Shown one piece after another: positions 7,724 to 56,696 of a stretch of DNA of 64,000 nucleotides. The position numbers and the translations under genes are program-made. Position 1 is the stretch's first letter, and each line of letters begins with the position of its first letter. The notes beneath the pieces were generated by a model that was not told the DNA's origin, did no database searches, and worked only from the letters and a program-made list of their open reading frames with translations. This stretch comes from Nitrosospira lacus (lineage in GTDB: Bacteria; Pseudomonadota; Gammaproteobacteria; Burkholderiales; Nitrosomonadaceae): positions 2,141,137-2,205,136 of the forward strand of contig NZ_CP021106.3 in the NCBI RefSeq assembly GCF_000355765.4, written 5' to 3'.

Positions 7724-8584
7724 ATGCTGGTCATAGTTGGATGTCTCATTGTTCTTGGCTCGGTATTTGGCGGATTTGCGCTTGCCGGTGGCCATCTCGC
7801 CGCGCTCTATCAGCCGCTGGAACTGCTGATGATCGGCGGCGCGGCGGTAGGAGCCTTCGTGCTGGGCAATACGGGCAAGGCGCTCAAGGCTACCTTCAAG
7901 GCGTTGCCCAAGGTCGCTCAAGGCTCCAGGCATACCAAGGACCTGTACATGGATCTCATGGCATTGCTCTATGACCTCCTTGCAAAAGTGCGCAAGGAAG
8001 GGTTGATGTCGATAGAAAGCGATATCGAGAACCCTGCGGAAAGTCCCATCTTTGCCCATTACCCCAACGTTCTGGCCGATCATGAGGCGATCGAATTCAT
8101 GACAGACTATTTGCGCCTGATGGTGGGTGGCAACCTCAATGCATTCGAGATCGAGAATCTGATGGATAACGAAATCGAAATTCACCATCAAGAGGGTGAA
8201 GTGCCAGTGCATTGCATTGCAAAGTTGGGTGACAGCATGCCGGCATTCGGCATCGTTGCGGCGGTGATGGGCGTTATCCATACCATGGCATCGGTGGGCC
8301 TGCCACCATCTGAGCTGGGCATTCTGGTTGCCCAGGCGCTGGTAGGCACATTCCTCGGAATTCTGCTTGGATATGGTTTCGTGGGACCGTGCGCTGCCGT
8401 GCTGGAACAAAAACTGGAAGAATCCACGAAGATGTTGCAGTGCATCAGGATGACCCTGCTGGCCAGCATAAACGGCTACGCGCCCGCGCTGGCGGTCGAA
8501 TTCGGCCGCAAGGCTCTGTACTCGACCGAGCGGCCGAATTTTATCGAGCTGGAAGAACGGGTCAGGCAGGCAAAAAACAAATGA
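7724..8584 (+). CDS. motA: Flagellar stator protein MotA
   Basis: 286 residues. MotA surrounds MotB to form the proton channel that turns the motor. Four membrane segments are visible (two near the N-terminus, two around residues 175-220). The cytoplasmic loop carries KVRKEGLMSIE, matching the charged rotor-facing loop, and PAFGIVAAVMGVIHTM carries the conserved channel proline. A GGGGG-type ribosome site (AGGGGGTATC) precedes the ATG. Expressed from the sigma-28 box at 7556. The following gap to motB is filled by a dispersed repeat. Confidence 0.96.
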   Translation: MLVIVGCLIVLGSVFGGFALAGGHLAALYQPLELLMIGGAAVGAFVLGNTGKALKATFKALPKVAQGSRHTKDLYMDLMALLYDLLAKVRKEGLMSIESDIENPAESPIFAHYPNVLADHEAIEFMTDYLRLMVGGNLNAFEIENLMDNEIEIHHQEGEVPVHCIAKLGDSMPAFGIVAAVMGVIHTMASVGLPPSELGILVAQALVGTFLGILLGYGFVGPCAAVLEQKLEESTKMLQCIRMTLLASINGYAPALAVEFGRKALYSTERPNFIELEERVRQAKNK

Positions 8585-8587
8585 TTA

Positions 8588-8703
8588 TCCTGAATCCGGT
8601 AGTTTGTAGCGAACCCCAGGGATAATGGTTAAGTGGCGCAAAAAAATCTTTATGGATCATAACGCTAATCCGAAAGATGAGCGGCCGGCTGCCGGATTCA
8701 GGA
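8588..8703 (-). repeat. Dispersed intergenic repeat, copy 1 (inverted relative to copies 2-4)
   Basis: 116-base element almost filling the motA-motB gap. Its ends are near-perfect inverted repeats, TCCTGAATCCGGTAG (8588-8602) and CTGCCGGATTCAGGA (8689-8703). Read on the minus strand it aligns with the copies at 18631, 52500 and 55758: shared pieces are CCGCTCATCTTTC, ATTAGCG, ATGATCCATAAAGATT and, at the end, CTACCGGATTCAGG. The right end lies 18 bases before the motB start and adjoins its ribosome site. Function unknown. Confidence 0.75.
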
Positions 8704-8721
8704 TTACAGGAATATACATTC

Positions 8722-18566: not shown

Positions 18567-18630
18567 TCAATCAGGGTAGCCAGGATTATGCGAATTTCCG
18601 ATCCAGTCAAGTGATGCCACGCGGGATTTG

Positions 18631-18709
18631 CCTTGAATCCGGCAACCTATCCCTCATTTCACAGGCTAGCACCATGATCCATCAAGATTTATAAGGGGCA
18701 GATTCAGGA
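18631..18709 (+). repeat. Dispersed intergenic repeat, copy 2 (shortened)
   Basis: About 79 bases between motD and flgN. CCTTGAATCCGGCAACC, CCTCATTTCACAGGCTAGC and ACCATGATCCATCAAGATTT line up with copies 1, 3 and 4; the end GCAGATTCAGGA is a decayed form of the terminal repeat. The inner 40 bases present in the other copies are missing. It lies between convergent genes, unlike the other three copies. Confidence 0.6.
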
Positions 18710-18776
18710 TTCTCAATCCTGGAGATGTTGCGGGGCAAACACGAAGCATGGCGAACGGGGTAAATACCGGCGAGGA

Positions 18777-33990: not shown

Positions 33991-34288
33991 TTGGCACACG
34001 GTGTTTCATCAGCAGGGCGGAGAGGGTGGCTTTGGGCCGGTTTTAGAAGTTATCCATCACTTGATTAGTACGCGGTTGGAATTACGCATTAAACCCCGAT
34101 AATCCATTAGGCGGCCTCCGAGCCTAAGCGAGTGCTGGCGGTCAGTTTGCGTCCATTTTTGCCACTTGCCCGGTGCCCATAGACCAGGCTATGGACTTCT
34201 CCCAACCGGCAAAGCTGTCTCGTAACCCGCCTTACCATCATCCGCGCCCTAAATGGATTATCCAGATTAAAAATCCTGACGAATCGAT
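33991..34288. other. Intergenic stretch before the flagellin promoter
   Basis: About 300 bases after the response regulator. I see no convincing gene; an open frame on the minus strand here looks like chance. The left end of the tandem flagellin repeat falls at 34277. Confidence 0.4.
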
Positions 34289-34315
34289 TAAATTTATTTT
34301 GTGAAGCGCCGTTAA
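34289..34315 (+). promoter_or_regulatory. Sigma-28 (FliA) promoter of flagellin gene 1
   Basis: TAAATTTA (34289-34296), 11 bases, GCCGTTAA (34308-34315). The leader is about 95 bases and ends in a CGAGGAG ribosome site. The same box is present before flagellin gene 2. Confidence 0.85.
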
Positions 34316-34417
34316 TCAATATAACAGCAGTTGATCGGCCTCGGGTTAATGTGGGTGGATCAAAGTTGAAAGCTGTAGGGTTTAATTCCATCACACTTTA
34401 ATCGAGGAGATTTTGAA

Positions 34418-35575
34418 ATGGCCGCAATTATCAATACCAACGTAATCTCGCTGAACGCGCAACGCAACCTTAGCAGTTCGCAAAGCGCGCTTGCCACTTC
34501 CCTGCAACGCCTGTCTTCCGGCATGCGCATCAACAGCGCCAAGGACGACGCCGCAGGATTGGCGATTTCCGATCGGATGACTTCCCAGATTCGCGGTCTG
34601 AACCAGGCGGCGCGCAACGCCAACGACGGCATCTCGATGGCGCAGACCGCCGAGGGCGCACTGGGAGAAATCGGTAACAACCTGCAGCGCATCCGCGAAC
34701 TGGCGGTGCAATCGCGCAATGCGAGCAACAGCGTAAGTGACCGTACCGCGCTCAACAACGAAGTCCAGCAGCTCAAGGATGAAATCGACCGGGTATCTTC
34801 AACGACCGCATTCAACGGCATCAAGCTGCTCGATGGCACATTTACCAATCAGGCATTCCAGGTTGGCGCCAACGTTGGCGAAACCATTTCCATCAGCGGC
34901 CTGGTCAACGCACAGAGCACATCTCTGGGCACCAGCACCAGCAGCACCGCCAATGTTACCGGCGTCGCCGCCACGGCTTTCACCGCGATCACCGCAGGTG
35001 ACCTGACCATCAACGGCACCAGCGTGGGCGCGGTTGCCGCCGGTGGCAACGCCGTTACACAGGGTGCCAACATTGCGGCCGCCATCAACACGGTATCGGA
35101 TACCACCGGCGTTACCGCCACCGCCGACGCCGCTGGCCTGGTCTCGCTGACCAATGTATCAGGTAATACCACGGTCGTGGCTTTCGCCGGCGCCTCCGCC
35201 ACCACGGCGACCACCGGTCTGACAGCCGCTACCACCGCGGTAACGACCGCGACCGGCGCGGGATTTGCGAATCTGGACATCAGCAATACCACAAATGCCG
35301 ACTTTGCCATTGCCGCGATGGATTCAGCGCTGAGCGCGCTCAATGCAGGCCGCGCCGACCTGGGCGCCTACCAGAACCGGTTCTCGTCGGCGATCGCGAA
35401 CGTGCAAACCGCAGCGGAGAATCTGACCGCATCGCGCAGCCGCATCGTCGATACCGATTTTGCGGCGGAAACCGCCACGTTATCGAGGAACCAGGTGCTG
35501 CAACAGGCAGGCACGGCGATGCTGGCCCAGGCCAATGCCATGCCGCAGTCCGTGCTGGCGCTGCTGAGAGGTTAA
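34418..35575 (+). CDS. fliC: Flagellin, copy 1
   Basis: 385 residues, short for a flagellin. The conserved N-terminal half ([40 protein letters not shown]) and C-terminal end ([37 protein letters not shown]) form the filament core. The small middle part (about 165-295) is rich in A, T and G and contains a flagellin IN-type repeat ([12 protein letters not shown]). Controlled by the FliA box at 34289, exported with FliS as chaperone. It differs from copy 2 mainly in the middle region. Confidence 0.97.
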
Positions 35576-35646: not shown

Positions 35647-35980
35647 GCGCCCCAGCCGTTCGTGATGGTTTATGTTTTCTGGAAGACGAGTGCGGCGAAG
35701 CGCAGTCCAAGACCCAATAAAACCCCGGCACCTGTTTCACCACTGGGCTACGCTACACTTTACCCATTCCGCATAAAATAAGCATCGCCGGGATTACAGC
35801 ATTCGCTTCGCAATGCAATGAAGGCCCAGGATGTTTTGGTGCGGGCTTCTCACAGCTGTTTTTATGGTCGAAATCCGGATATACGATATGGATTGCCCTT
35901 TAATCGTTGGATTGCACAGTATCTCCTACGCTTATCATTTCAAGTCTGGCTATTTGTCGAATTGACGTTCTGAAAAATTT
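35647..35980. other. Unique spacer between the flagellin copies
   Basis: About 330 bases not shared by the two flagellin repeat units. I see no gene, RNA or mobile element in it. Confidence 0.4.
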
Positions 35981-35992
35981 TGACGAATCGAT

Positions 35993-36019
35993 TAAATTTA
36001 TTTTGTGGGGCGCCGTTAA
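35993..36019 (+). promoter_or_regulatory. Sigma-28 (FliA) promoter of flagellin gene 2
   Basis: TAAATTTA (35993-36000), 11 bases, GCCGTTAA (36012-36019). Both hexamer-like boxes are identical to those of copy 1, so the second flagellin should be under the same control. Confidence 0.85.
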
Positions 36020-36121
36020 TCAACATAACAGCAGTTGATCGGCCTCGGGTTAATGCGGGTGGATCAAAGTTGAAAGCTGTAGGGTTTAATTCCATCACAC
36101 TTTAATCGAGGAGATTTTGAA

Positions 36122-37279
36122 ATGGCCGCAATTATCAATACCAACGTAATCTCGCTGAACGCGCAACGCAACCTTAGCAGTTCGCAAAGCGCGCTTGCCA
36201 CTTCCCTGCAACGCCTGTCTTCCGGCATGCGCATCAACAGCGCCAAGGACGACGCCGCAGGATTGGCGATTTCCGATCGGATGACTTCCCAGATTCGCGG
36301 TCTGAACCAGGCGGCGCGCAACGCCAACGACGGCATCTCGATGGCGCAGACCGCCGAGGGCGCACTGGGAGAAATCGGTAACAACCTGCAGCGCATCCGC
36401 GAACTGGCGGTGCAATCGCGCAATGCGAGCAACAGCGTAAGCGACCGTACCGCGCTCAACAACGAAGTCCAGCAGCTCAAGGATGAAATCGACCGGGTAT
36501 CTTCAACGACCGCATTCAACGGCATCAAGCTGCTCGATGGCACATTTACCAACCAGGCATTCCAGGTTGGCGCCAACGTTGGCGAAACCATTTCCATCAG
36601 CGGCCTGGTCAATGCACAGAGCTCAGCCCTGGGTTCCACGACCAGTACCACCGCCAATGTTACCGGCGTTGCCGCCACGGCTTTCACCGCGATCACCGCG
36701 GGTGACCTGACCATCAATGGCACCAGCGTGGGCGCGGTTGCCGCCGGTGGCAACGCCGTTACGCAGGGCGCCAACATTGCGGCCGCCATTAACACGGTGA
36801 CGAATACCACCGGCGTTATCGCCACCGCCGACGCCGCTGGCCTGGTCTCGCTGACCAACATGTCGGGCAGTAACACGGTCGTGGCTTTTGCCGGCGCCTC
36901 CGCCACCACGGCAACCACCGGCCTGACAGCTGCTACGACCACCGCGACAACTACCACTGTCGCCGGTTTTTCAGGGGTGGATATCGGCAACACGTGGGGT
37001 GCCGACATTGCCATTGCCTCAATGGATTCGGCTTTGAGCGCGCTCAATGCAGGACGCGCCGACTTGGGCGCCTATCAGAACCGTTTCTCGTCGGCGATCG
37101 CGAACGTGCAAACCGCAGCGGAGAACCTGACCGCATCACGCAGCCGCATCGTCGATACCGATTTTGCGGCGGAAACCGCCACGTTGTCGAGGAACCAGGT
37201 GCTGCAACAGGCAGGCACGGCGATGCTGGCCCAGGCCAATGCCATGCCGCAGTCCGTGCTGGCGCTGCTGAGAGGTTAA
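36122..37279 (+). CDS. fliC: Flagellin, copy 2
   Basis: 385 residues, the same length as copy 1. The first about 165 residues and the last about 85 are identical or almost so. Differences fall between: for example [14 protein letters not shown] against [14 protein letters not shown], and [20 protein letters not shown] against [20 protein letters not shown]. The pattern fits either a recent duplication or gene conversion of the ends with selection for a varied surface region. Its own FliA box and terminator suggest it is expressed. Confidence 0.97.
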
Positions 37280-52495: not shown

Positions 52496-52499
52496 TCAT

Positions 52500-52619
52500 T
52501 GAACCCGAGTCCGGTGGCTACGTTCATTTTTCAGGTTAATACCATGATCCACATAGATTGCTTGCCAGATCTGACCATCAGTTTCCCGGTGAGCCCACTA
52601 TCGGGACCACTCAGGTTAA
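52500..52619 (+). repeat. Dispersed intergenic repeat, copy 3
   Basis: About 120 bases filling the fliL-fliM gap. It opens TGAACCCGAGTCCGGTGGC, continues GTTCATTTTTCAGGTTAAT and ACCATGATCCACATAGATT, and closes CTATCGGGACCACTCAGGTT; each piece aligns with copies 1, 2 and 4. The closing CAGGTT provides the likely ribosome site of fliM (ATG 52627). Confidence 0.7.
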
Positions 52620-52626
52620 CCCTATC

Positions 52627-55706: not shown

Positions 55707-55757
55707 CGATAACGATGCGTACCGCTTAAAGCTCTTGATAAATTCTGTGCCTACGCT

Positions 55758-55877
55758 TAAACCCAAATTCGGTGGCTGACCGCTCATTTATCAGTTTGGC
55801 GCCTTGATTCGTGAAGCTTGTCTGTATGTAACGTGATTTTCATCTCCGGGGTAAACCCGCTACCGGATTCAGGTTAA
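55758..55877 (+). repeat. Dispersed intergenic repeat, copy 4
   Basis: About 120 bases in the fliQ-fliR gap. TAAACCCAAATTCGGTGGC, CCGCTCATTTATCAG and TTTGGCG align with copies 3 and 1; the end CTACCGGATTCAGG equals the terminal repeat of copy 1. The terminal CAGG is the only ribosome-site-like sequence before the fliR ATG (55878). Confidence 0.7.
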
Positions 55878-56696
55878 ATGATAACCCTCAGCTCCGCCGA
55901 TCTCGACGCCTGGATGACTTCCTTCTTATGGCCGCTGGCACGCATCCTGGCGCTTCTGGCGGCGGCGCCGGTGCTCGGGAATGCGGCAATTCCGGCACGG
56001 GTAAAAATCGGACTGGGGGTGCTTGTCACGCTGATTGTCGCGCCCGCTATCGGGCCGCTGCCGAAAGTCGAACCGGGATCACTCGAAGGATTGCTGATTC
56101 TCGGGCAGCAGATCTTTATCGGACTGGCGATGGGCTTTGCGGTACGTATCGTATTCAGCGCGGTGGAGATGGCTGGCGAAATAGCCGGCCTGCAAATGGG
56201 CCTGGGTTTTGCCACTTTTTTCAGTCCCCGCAGCGACGGCAGCACCCTGGTGGTGGGCCGTTTCCTTGGCTTGCTGGCGACGCTCACCTTCCTTGCCATG
56301 AATGGCCATCTGCTGATGTTGTCGGTGCTGGCGGAGAGTTTCAATGTATTTCCCATTTCCGCAGAGCCGTTCTCGGCTGGCGGCTGGAAGATGCTCGCGG
56401 AATGGGGCGGCAAGATTTTCGAGGCGGGCCTAAGGCTCGCGCTGCCTGTGGTCACCGCGCTGCTTATCGTCAACCTGGCGCTGGGCATTCTCACCCGTGC
56501 CGCGCCCCAGTTGAATATCTTCGCGGTAGGTTTCCCGATCACGCTGATGGTGGGAATGACGGCATTGATGCTGTCGCTCCCTTATTTTATCCCCGTGATC
56601 GAGCGGTTGATTACGGAAGCACTGGAAATCATGCTGGAGGTGGTCCGCGCCGCTGCCGTCCACGCCTCAGGCAACCCGCCCAGAGCTTTGTCGTGA
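55878..56696 (+). CDS. fliR: Flagellar type III export pore protein FliR
   Basis: 272 residues with about six membrane helices. Typical stretches are FLWPLARILALLAAAPVLGN, PARVKIGLGVLVTLIVAPAI and GEIAGLQMGLGFATFFSPRS. It completes the FliPQR pore and is the last flagellar gene in the window. The ATG directly follows repeat copy 4. Confidence 0.95.
   Translation: MITLSSADLDAWMTSFLWPLARILALLAAAPVLGNAAIPARVKIGLGVLVTLIVAPAIGPLPKVEPGSLEGLLILGQQIFIGLAMGFAVRIVFSAVEMAGEIAGLQMGLGFATFFSPRSDGSTLVVGRFLGLLATLTFLAMNGHLLMLSVLAESFNVFPISAEPFSAGGWKMLAEWGGKIFEAGLRLALPVVTALLIVNLALGILTRAAPQLNIFAVGFPITLMVGMTALMLSLPYFIPVIERLITEALEIMLEVVRAAAVHASGNPPRALS

Follow-up and report, generated by a model that had tools for sequence, protein, structure and literature searches.

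Four related sequences in gaps of the flagellar gene clusters of Nitrosospira lacus are members of a chromosome-wide family of small elements that, judged from their sequence, is a MITE: the elements are short, transposase-free and multicopy, with terminal inverted repeats, a target duplication and empty sites in related genomes. The element has 17-bp inverted ends CCTRAATCCGGYRGTTG, is about 110–116 bp long and contains no transposase gene. The element inserts at WTNAW, duplicating 5 bp, and a transposase of an IS1380-like subgroup most likely moves it, or once moved it, in trans. The ends of that subgroup read CCTA-N7-CAGTT, and the probability of this reading as a whole can be put at about 0.87; the movement in trans is the part that we infer.

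The copies were scored with R1, a covariance model built from 13 copies of the N. lacus genome, including copies 1, 3 and 4 below. The window is the whole 64,000-nucleotide stretch of N. lacus DNA that was analysed, and the features in it are as follows.

8584..8588, no strand: flank ATTAT beside copy 1, a possible decayed target duplicate; the site is empty in the related genome G006
8584: end of the motA TGA, within the flank ATTAT of copy 1
8589..8702, minus strand: copy 1, full length (114 bp), motA–motB gap; R1 115.6 bits over 8585-8706
8703..8707, no strand: ATTAC, the flank of copy 1 opposite ATTAT; the related genome G009 reads ATGAT here
18631..18708, plus strand: copy 2 (78 bp), gap between a motD-like gene and flgN, convergent; R1 35.6 bits over 18628-18711
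52499..52503, no strand: flank TTGAA, left of copy 3
52504..52615, plus strand: copy 3 (112 bp), fliL–fliM gap; R1 89.7 bits over 52500-52619
52616-52620: flank TTAAC, right of copy 3
55757..55761, no strand: TTAAA, left-hand member of the exact target-duplicate pair around copy 4
55762..55873, plus strand: copy 4 (112 bp), fliQ–fliR gap; R1 96.4 bits over 55758-55877
55874..55878, no strand: TTAAA, right-hand member of the exact target-duplicate pair around copy 4; the fliR ATG begins with its last A

The sequence-only reading had reported four related sequences at these places, with copy 1 inverted and copy 2 shortened, and both points hold; the gene names it gave also agree with the Pfam matches of the neighbouring proteins (MotA, MotB, FliL, FliM, FliQ, FliR, a second MotB-like protein and FlgN). 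Copy 2 has a shortened interior with both ends still recognisable; in an unfiltered scan of the window with R1 it gave E = 9e-6, although it was outside the training set. The remaining R1 matches in the window are opposite-strand echoes of the four copies (at most 27.6 bits) or places scoring at most 9.2 bits. A blastn query with copy 1 alone hits the genome elsewhere at E values of 4.5e-12 and 9.6e-8; many of its 52 matches at E ≤ 10 cover the ends only. No Rfam family matches the window above its gathering score. The window also contains a 300-bp direct repeat, 98% identical (34269-34568 and 35973-36272), which overlaps two 385-aa open frames (34418-35575 and 36122-37279), duplicated genes by appearance.

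A genome-wide search, on which the sequence-only reading had let its claim of a repeat family stand or fall, returned an excess of copies: R1 finds at least 147 places at E ≤ 1 and at least 122 at E ≤ 1e-3 in the single-contig genome of 3.26 Mb, these counts being lower bounds, since the best 150 of more than 1000 candidates were scored. The end motif TGAATCCGGYNGNY occurs 262 times in the genome with at most one mismatch, versus 18 times for a reversed control pattern. The spacing of the copies over the chromosome is Poisson-like, with a coefficient of variation (CV) of 0.99. By our own arithmetic, about 2.9 copies are expected per 64 kb, so the four copies in the window are ordinary. Location inside flagellar operons, proposed earlier as a trait of the family, was thus rejected as a specificity of the element; the copies are randomly spread over the chromosome, and the flagellar genes are no special target of a family scattered through the whole genome. 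The elements at 577301 and 3257550 (L199 and L200) score equally, and their flanks are reverse complements of each other, so a genomic segment seems to be duplicated there.

The consensus, drawn from 73 R1 matches (70 distinct) with 69 loci of the N. lacus genome searched, is CCTGAATCCGGCAGTTG, about 82 bases and CAACTGCCGGATTCAGG, with A or G at position 4. Both ends were found, with at most three mismatches, in 62 of the 130 copies. The end-to-end length in the 45 copies tabulated is mostly about 110–116 bp, with extremes of 81 and 156 bp. About 24 longer copies contain, nested in them, a 120-bp module with inverted arms of its own (L055:1517-1636); genome-wide the module matches 32 times, in 27 cases no more than 350 bp from an R1 copy and in five away from any listed one.

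Outside both ends lies WTNAW, the 5-bp target duplication, with a preference for the palindromes ATNAT and TTNAA. The flanks of the best 90 copies gave 80 distinct pairs, of which 10 are identical at all five bases (2000 shuffles: mean 1.8, maximum 8) and 31 agree at four or more of the five (shuffled mean 12.5, maximum 23); with 70 of the 80 pairs inexact, most target duplicates of the MITE have decayed. The outer base at left −5 equals that at right +1 in 47 of 54 A/T pairs, which favours a duplication of 5 bp over one of 2 or 3 bp; equality is less frequent, 31 of 46, for the other outer pair, left −1 and right +5. The base at left −1 is complementary to that at right +1 in 45 of 51 pairs, and a 3-bp TNA repeat with one extra end base would give the same result. 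The balance is tipped to 5 bp because IS1380-like elements show exact 5-bp repeats.

The lead to the IS1380 family came from the 5-bp duplication and the CC-starting ends, and was checked against the table rows for IS1247 (1672 bp, IR 16/13, DR 5) and ISPsp9 (1718 bp, IR 21/18, DR 5) (PMC3281130, PMC4133298). In those rows ends of 16–21 bp are combined with a 5-bp duplication, as in the family described here. IS1380 elements differ from the MITE in carrying a transposase gene, and only the ends are common to it and the IS1380-like elements compared. Genomes of the genus and family were searched with the PF13701 profile. One IS1380-like subgroup, from other Burkholderiales, has proteins of 510–548 aa and, with small departures, CCTA-N7-CAGTT ends. 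Its members are locus L324, a relative of it on a Polaromonas plasmid (L331), three copies in genome G191, the relic L340 and a Methylibium relic. With PF13701 the L324 protein scores 67.1 bits (cut-off 34.7); with the NCBIfam model for IS1380 it reaches 138.8 bits, short of the cut-off, 180. The L324 element is flanked by an exact ATGAA duplication and the Polaromonas one by an exact TTAAA. The right end of relic L340, CCTAAATCCGGCAGTTG, is the same 17-mer as the MITE end with A at position 4. The three G191 copies have CCTAAATCCGGCAGTTA at one end, and the Methylibium relic has it as its right end. Counted by hand against the MITE end, the Methylibium right end agrees at 16 of 17 positions, the two G191 ends at 16 and 15 of 17, and the other end of L340 at 14 of 17.

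Paired ends were recognised in six of 16 IS1380-like loci of one set (L314, L324, L323, L304, L307 and L308) and in seven of 22 of a second (L342, L343, L348, L352, L340, L351 and L354). In the first set L314 has an exact TTCAA repeat and L323 a repeat agreeing at four of five bases, while L304, L307 and L308 have 4-bp repeats and other ends and belong to another subgroup. In the second, L342 (an element of genome G014) has an exact TTAAT and L343 an exact ATTAA; the repeats of L348 and L352, both from G191, agree at four of five bases, the third G191 copy being without a pair, and L340, L351 and L354 are one element with a repeat of four in five. Exact WTNAW repeats, and hence target duplications of the kind seen beside the MITE, accordingly flank L324, L314, L331, L342 and L343. 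L314, L342 and L343, from three genera, form a second IS1380 type with ends CCCAGATTTTCCATTAG.

No IS1380-like transposase with MITE ends was found in the N. lacus genome, and no intact one in the genus, where a single intact IS1380, that of G014, has different ends and G001, G010, G013 and G015 contain fragments. Relatives of the subgroup transposase at E ≤ 1e-20 occur in 15 of 399 genomes of the order, N. lacus not among them. The interior of the MITE, compared with five IS copies (two of them from one genome), gave no score above the best of 100 shuffles, one score equalling the best shuffle (23 and 23); an origin as a deletion derivative of the compared insertion sequences was rejected on this lack of interior similarity. 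A donor in the same genome or genus is common for such MITEs, as is an interior that stems from it, but neither defines them. The N. lacus genome has five nearly identical IS copies of about 1273 bp, including L190 (G000:C1:1910918-1911379), with a 407-aa open frame that scores weakly with PF13701; its ends are CACTGCTGTCCCACAA, and this IS was rejected as mobiliser. From the likeness of ends and target, the IS1380-like subgroup is most likely what moved the N. lacus copies. It is very improbable that another transposase family moved them, for instance that they are Tn3-family miniature elements (TIMEs) with 5-bp duplications: the passages of PMC4133298 covered describe 5- or 6-bp duplications in AT-rich DNA, and also ends of 38 bp, against ends here of 17 bp that start with CC and equal IS1380-like ends.

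Relatives of N. lacus contain both filled and empty sites. R1 matches at E ≤ 1e-3 occur in 17 of the 23 genomes of the genus, N. lacus included, with 1 to 144 in each, and six genomes have none. A family-level scan of 125 genomes with stricter filters returned 5–15 matches in six genomes of one other genus and 1–2 in three of another; in an order-level scan of 399 genomes, R1 matches at E ≤ 1e-6 occurred only in N. lacus and one other genome. A 21-mer scan led to 25 stretches, mostly of Nitrosospira. Those from a Limnohabitans MAG and a Proteobacteria MAG have one R1 match each (L077, 37.5 bits, and L061, 25 bits). L080, of Nitrosomonas HPC101, has no R1 match. The 21-mer in Noviherbaspirillum and Shewanella, with flanks similar by eye and no R1 match, was set aside as probably a chance occurrence in a gene. 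A plasmid search with one copy as DNA query returned no match.

Presence in orthologous gaps was judged by eye; G018 matched neither query, G020 did not match the motA–motB genes, and 11 genomes were left out at fliQ–fliR. The fliL–fliM gap is empty in all 21 other genomes resolved (32–37 bases versus 159 in N. lacus), and no copy was recognised in the fliQ–fliR gap of the 11 other genomes resolved there, with gaps of 49 to 164 bases. Among the genomes resolved, these two copies are therefore found in N. lacus only. The motA–motB gap is empty in 17 of the 20 other genomes resolved (32–48 bases). G009 has the same insertion as N. lacus copy 1, in the same orientation; those in G010 and G015 are opposite to it and are most simply taken as independent. 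In G015 the left end of the copy is worn, and ATGAT, which contains the motA TGA, stands on both sides of it; the empty gap of G006 has, by eye, a single ATGAT where G015 has two.

It was also considered whether the copies are a selected RNA element, a REP- or Correia-like hairpin governing the stability or translation of flagellar messages. Six copies were folded, two of which were taken on each strand, and gave z values against shuffles from −6.1 to −0.7, a range that inverted ends would be expected to give. Copy 1 (−3.9), L009 (−6.1) and L004 (−3.6) fold well beyond their shuffles, while copies 3 and 4 and L005 (−0.7, −1.8 and −1.1) hardly do so. Pairing of the arms over 70 rows is 79.1%, against 77.5% after shuffling, with three of 1000 shuffles reaching it; the alignment behind this slight excess had been made with a model that includes part of the stem, which favours pairing. 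Pairing of the inner hairpin is 82.9% both in the alignment and after shuffling (524 of 1000 reach it), with no covariation. A conserved RNA fold is thus not supported. Copies 1, 3 and 4 stop, by the model's end, 15, 7 and 0 bases short of the next start codon, and there is a slight orientation bias (54 copies in the same direction as the genes and 34 opposite, p 0.04), as a role in messages might predict; against such a role stand the lack of conservation at orthologous gaps and the random spread over the chromosome. Promoter scans gave no promoter-like match around copy 1 and one weak 9-of-12 match in L086, the best copy (shuffles 0.3). An RNA or regulatory role as a selected function is not supported, and the explanation by such an element is improbable; incidental effects on flagellar messages are possible. 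The sequence-only reading had left the choice between a miniature mobile element and a REP-like RNA structure. Its mobile half is strengthened by the inverted ends, the 5-bp duplication, the empty sites, the 0 to 144 matches per genome and the matching IS ends, and its RNA half is not. Its suggestion that the copies set translation or processing of these messages is not supported as a selected function, with no covariation in the inner hairpin and hardly any excess pairing of the arms.

The MITE lies between genes, often directly at their ends. With genes called by a home-made codon-usage script trained on 24 genes of the window, none of the 130 copies lies mostly inside a called gene; 88 are in co-directional, 15 in divergent and 10 in convergent contexts, and 17 are not classifiable. 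We infer that this location reflects selection against intragenic insertion together with the target rule. At 13 of the 88 co-directional junctions the called stop codon of the gene upstream coincides with the TNA that adjoins the element; in 54 other co-directional gaps this holds for 7 of 178 WTNAW sites (binomial p 4e-5; mean per gap 6%). This excess of stop codons at insertion sites is not firm, because the control gaps may exceed the pre-insertion gaps in length. In nine further junctions the stop falls within the end repeat, 8–22 bases in, and in 14 the called start falls between 4 bases inside the model's end and 1 base past it. In L203 and L219 TGA is the stop on one side and ATGA holds the start at the opposite side. 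L221 is flanked by ATGAT at both ends, with its start there and its called stop in the end repeat.

Many surviving sites are gene ends and junctions, which would follow from the target rule: the stop codons TAA and TGA match TNA, and ATGA, an overlapping stop/start, matches WTNA. When such a site is duplicated, the gene upstream can keep a copy of the stop and the gene downstream a copy of the start, so that both are spared. A further step, tentative and on balance doubtful, would be that this IS1380-moved MITE is fitted to gene junctions, its WTNAW duplication handing the stop to one gene and the start to the next. Its ends would then carry stop codons (CCTRA, GTTGA) for genes reading in, and the outermost CAGG would, with an A after it, supply AGGA as the core of a putative ribosome site; at fliR the sequence reads CAGGTTAAATG. 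If so, the element could spread in operons, splitting overlapping gene pairs and shifting translational coupling but breaking neither gene.

Among known systems, the Correia element (CREE/NEMIS) of Neisseria is described, in the passages covered, as non-coding, mostly 104–108 or 153–157 bp long and present in more than 100 copies (PMC2649163, PMC10969869). Like it, the Nitrosospira element is short, non-coding and present in more than 100 copies, often near genes, with inverted ends able to form an RNA stem, and both have short and long forms. The ends and core differ, however, and the Nitrosospira element has neither Correia ends nor a TA duplication, the target being usually TA there and the 5-bp WTNAW here. 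REPs are much shorter, single palindromes that go with a RAYT transposase, whereas the Nitrosospira unit measures about 110–116 bp, has two ends that differ, and shows a target duplication and empty sites. The high copy number and extragenic location are shared with REP/BIME sequences (PMC2817692). The CC-starting ends recall piggyBac transposons and MITEs, whose TTAA target is close to WTNAW, although these have a 4-bp duplication and eukaryotic hosts; IS1380 served as an outgroup of piggyBac in PMC10813416, in the passages covered. In the literature passages covered, no bacterial MITE tied to IS1380 was found, and the search found no Nitrosospira paper on miniature inverted-repeat elements. 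Unless it is the MITE for which PMC10969869 cites a 2008 paper on Polaromonas JS666, the family is a new one of a kind already known, the MITE.

The finding accounts for a large set of the repeats that lie between genes in Nitrosospira, an ammonia oxidiser, and provides a good case of a bacterial MITE linked to the IS1380/piggyBac transposase group. The target rule, matching stop and start codons, suggests how the element may settle in operons with little damage, and the empty and filled sites among congeners make its effects on operon expression directly testable.
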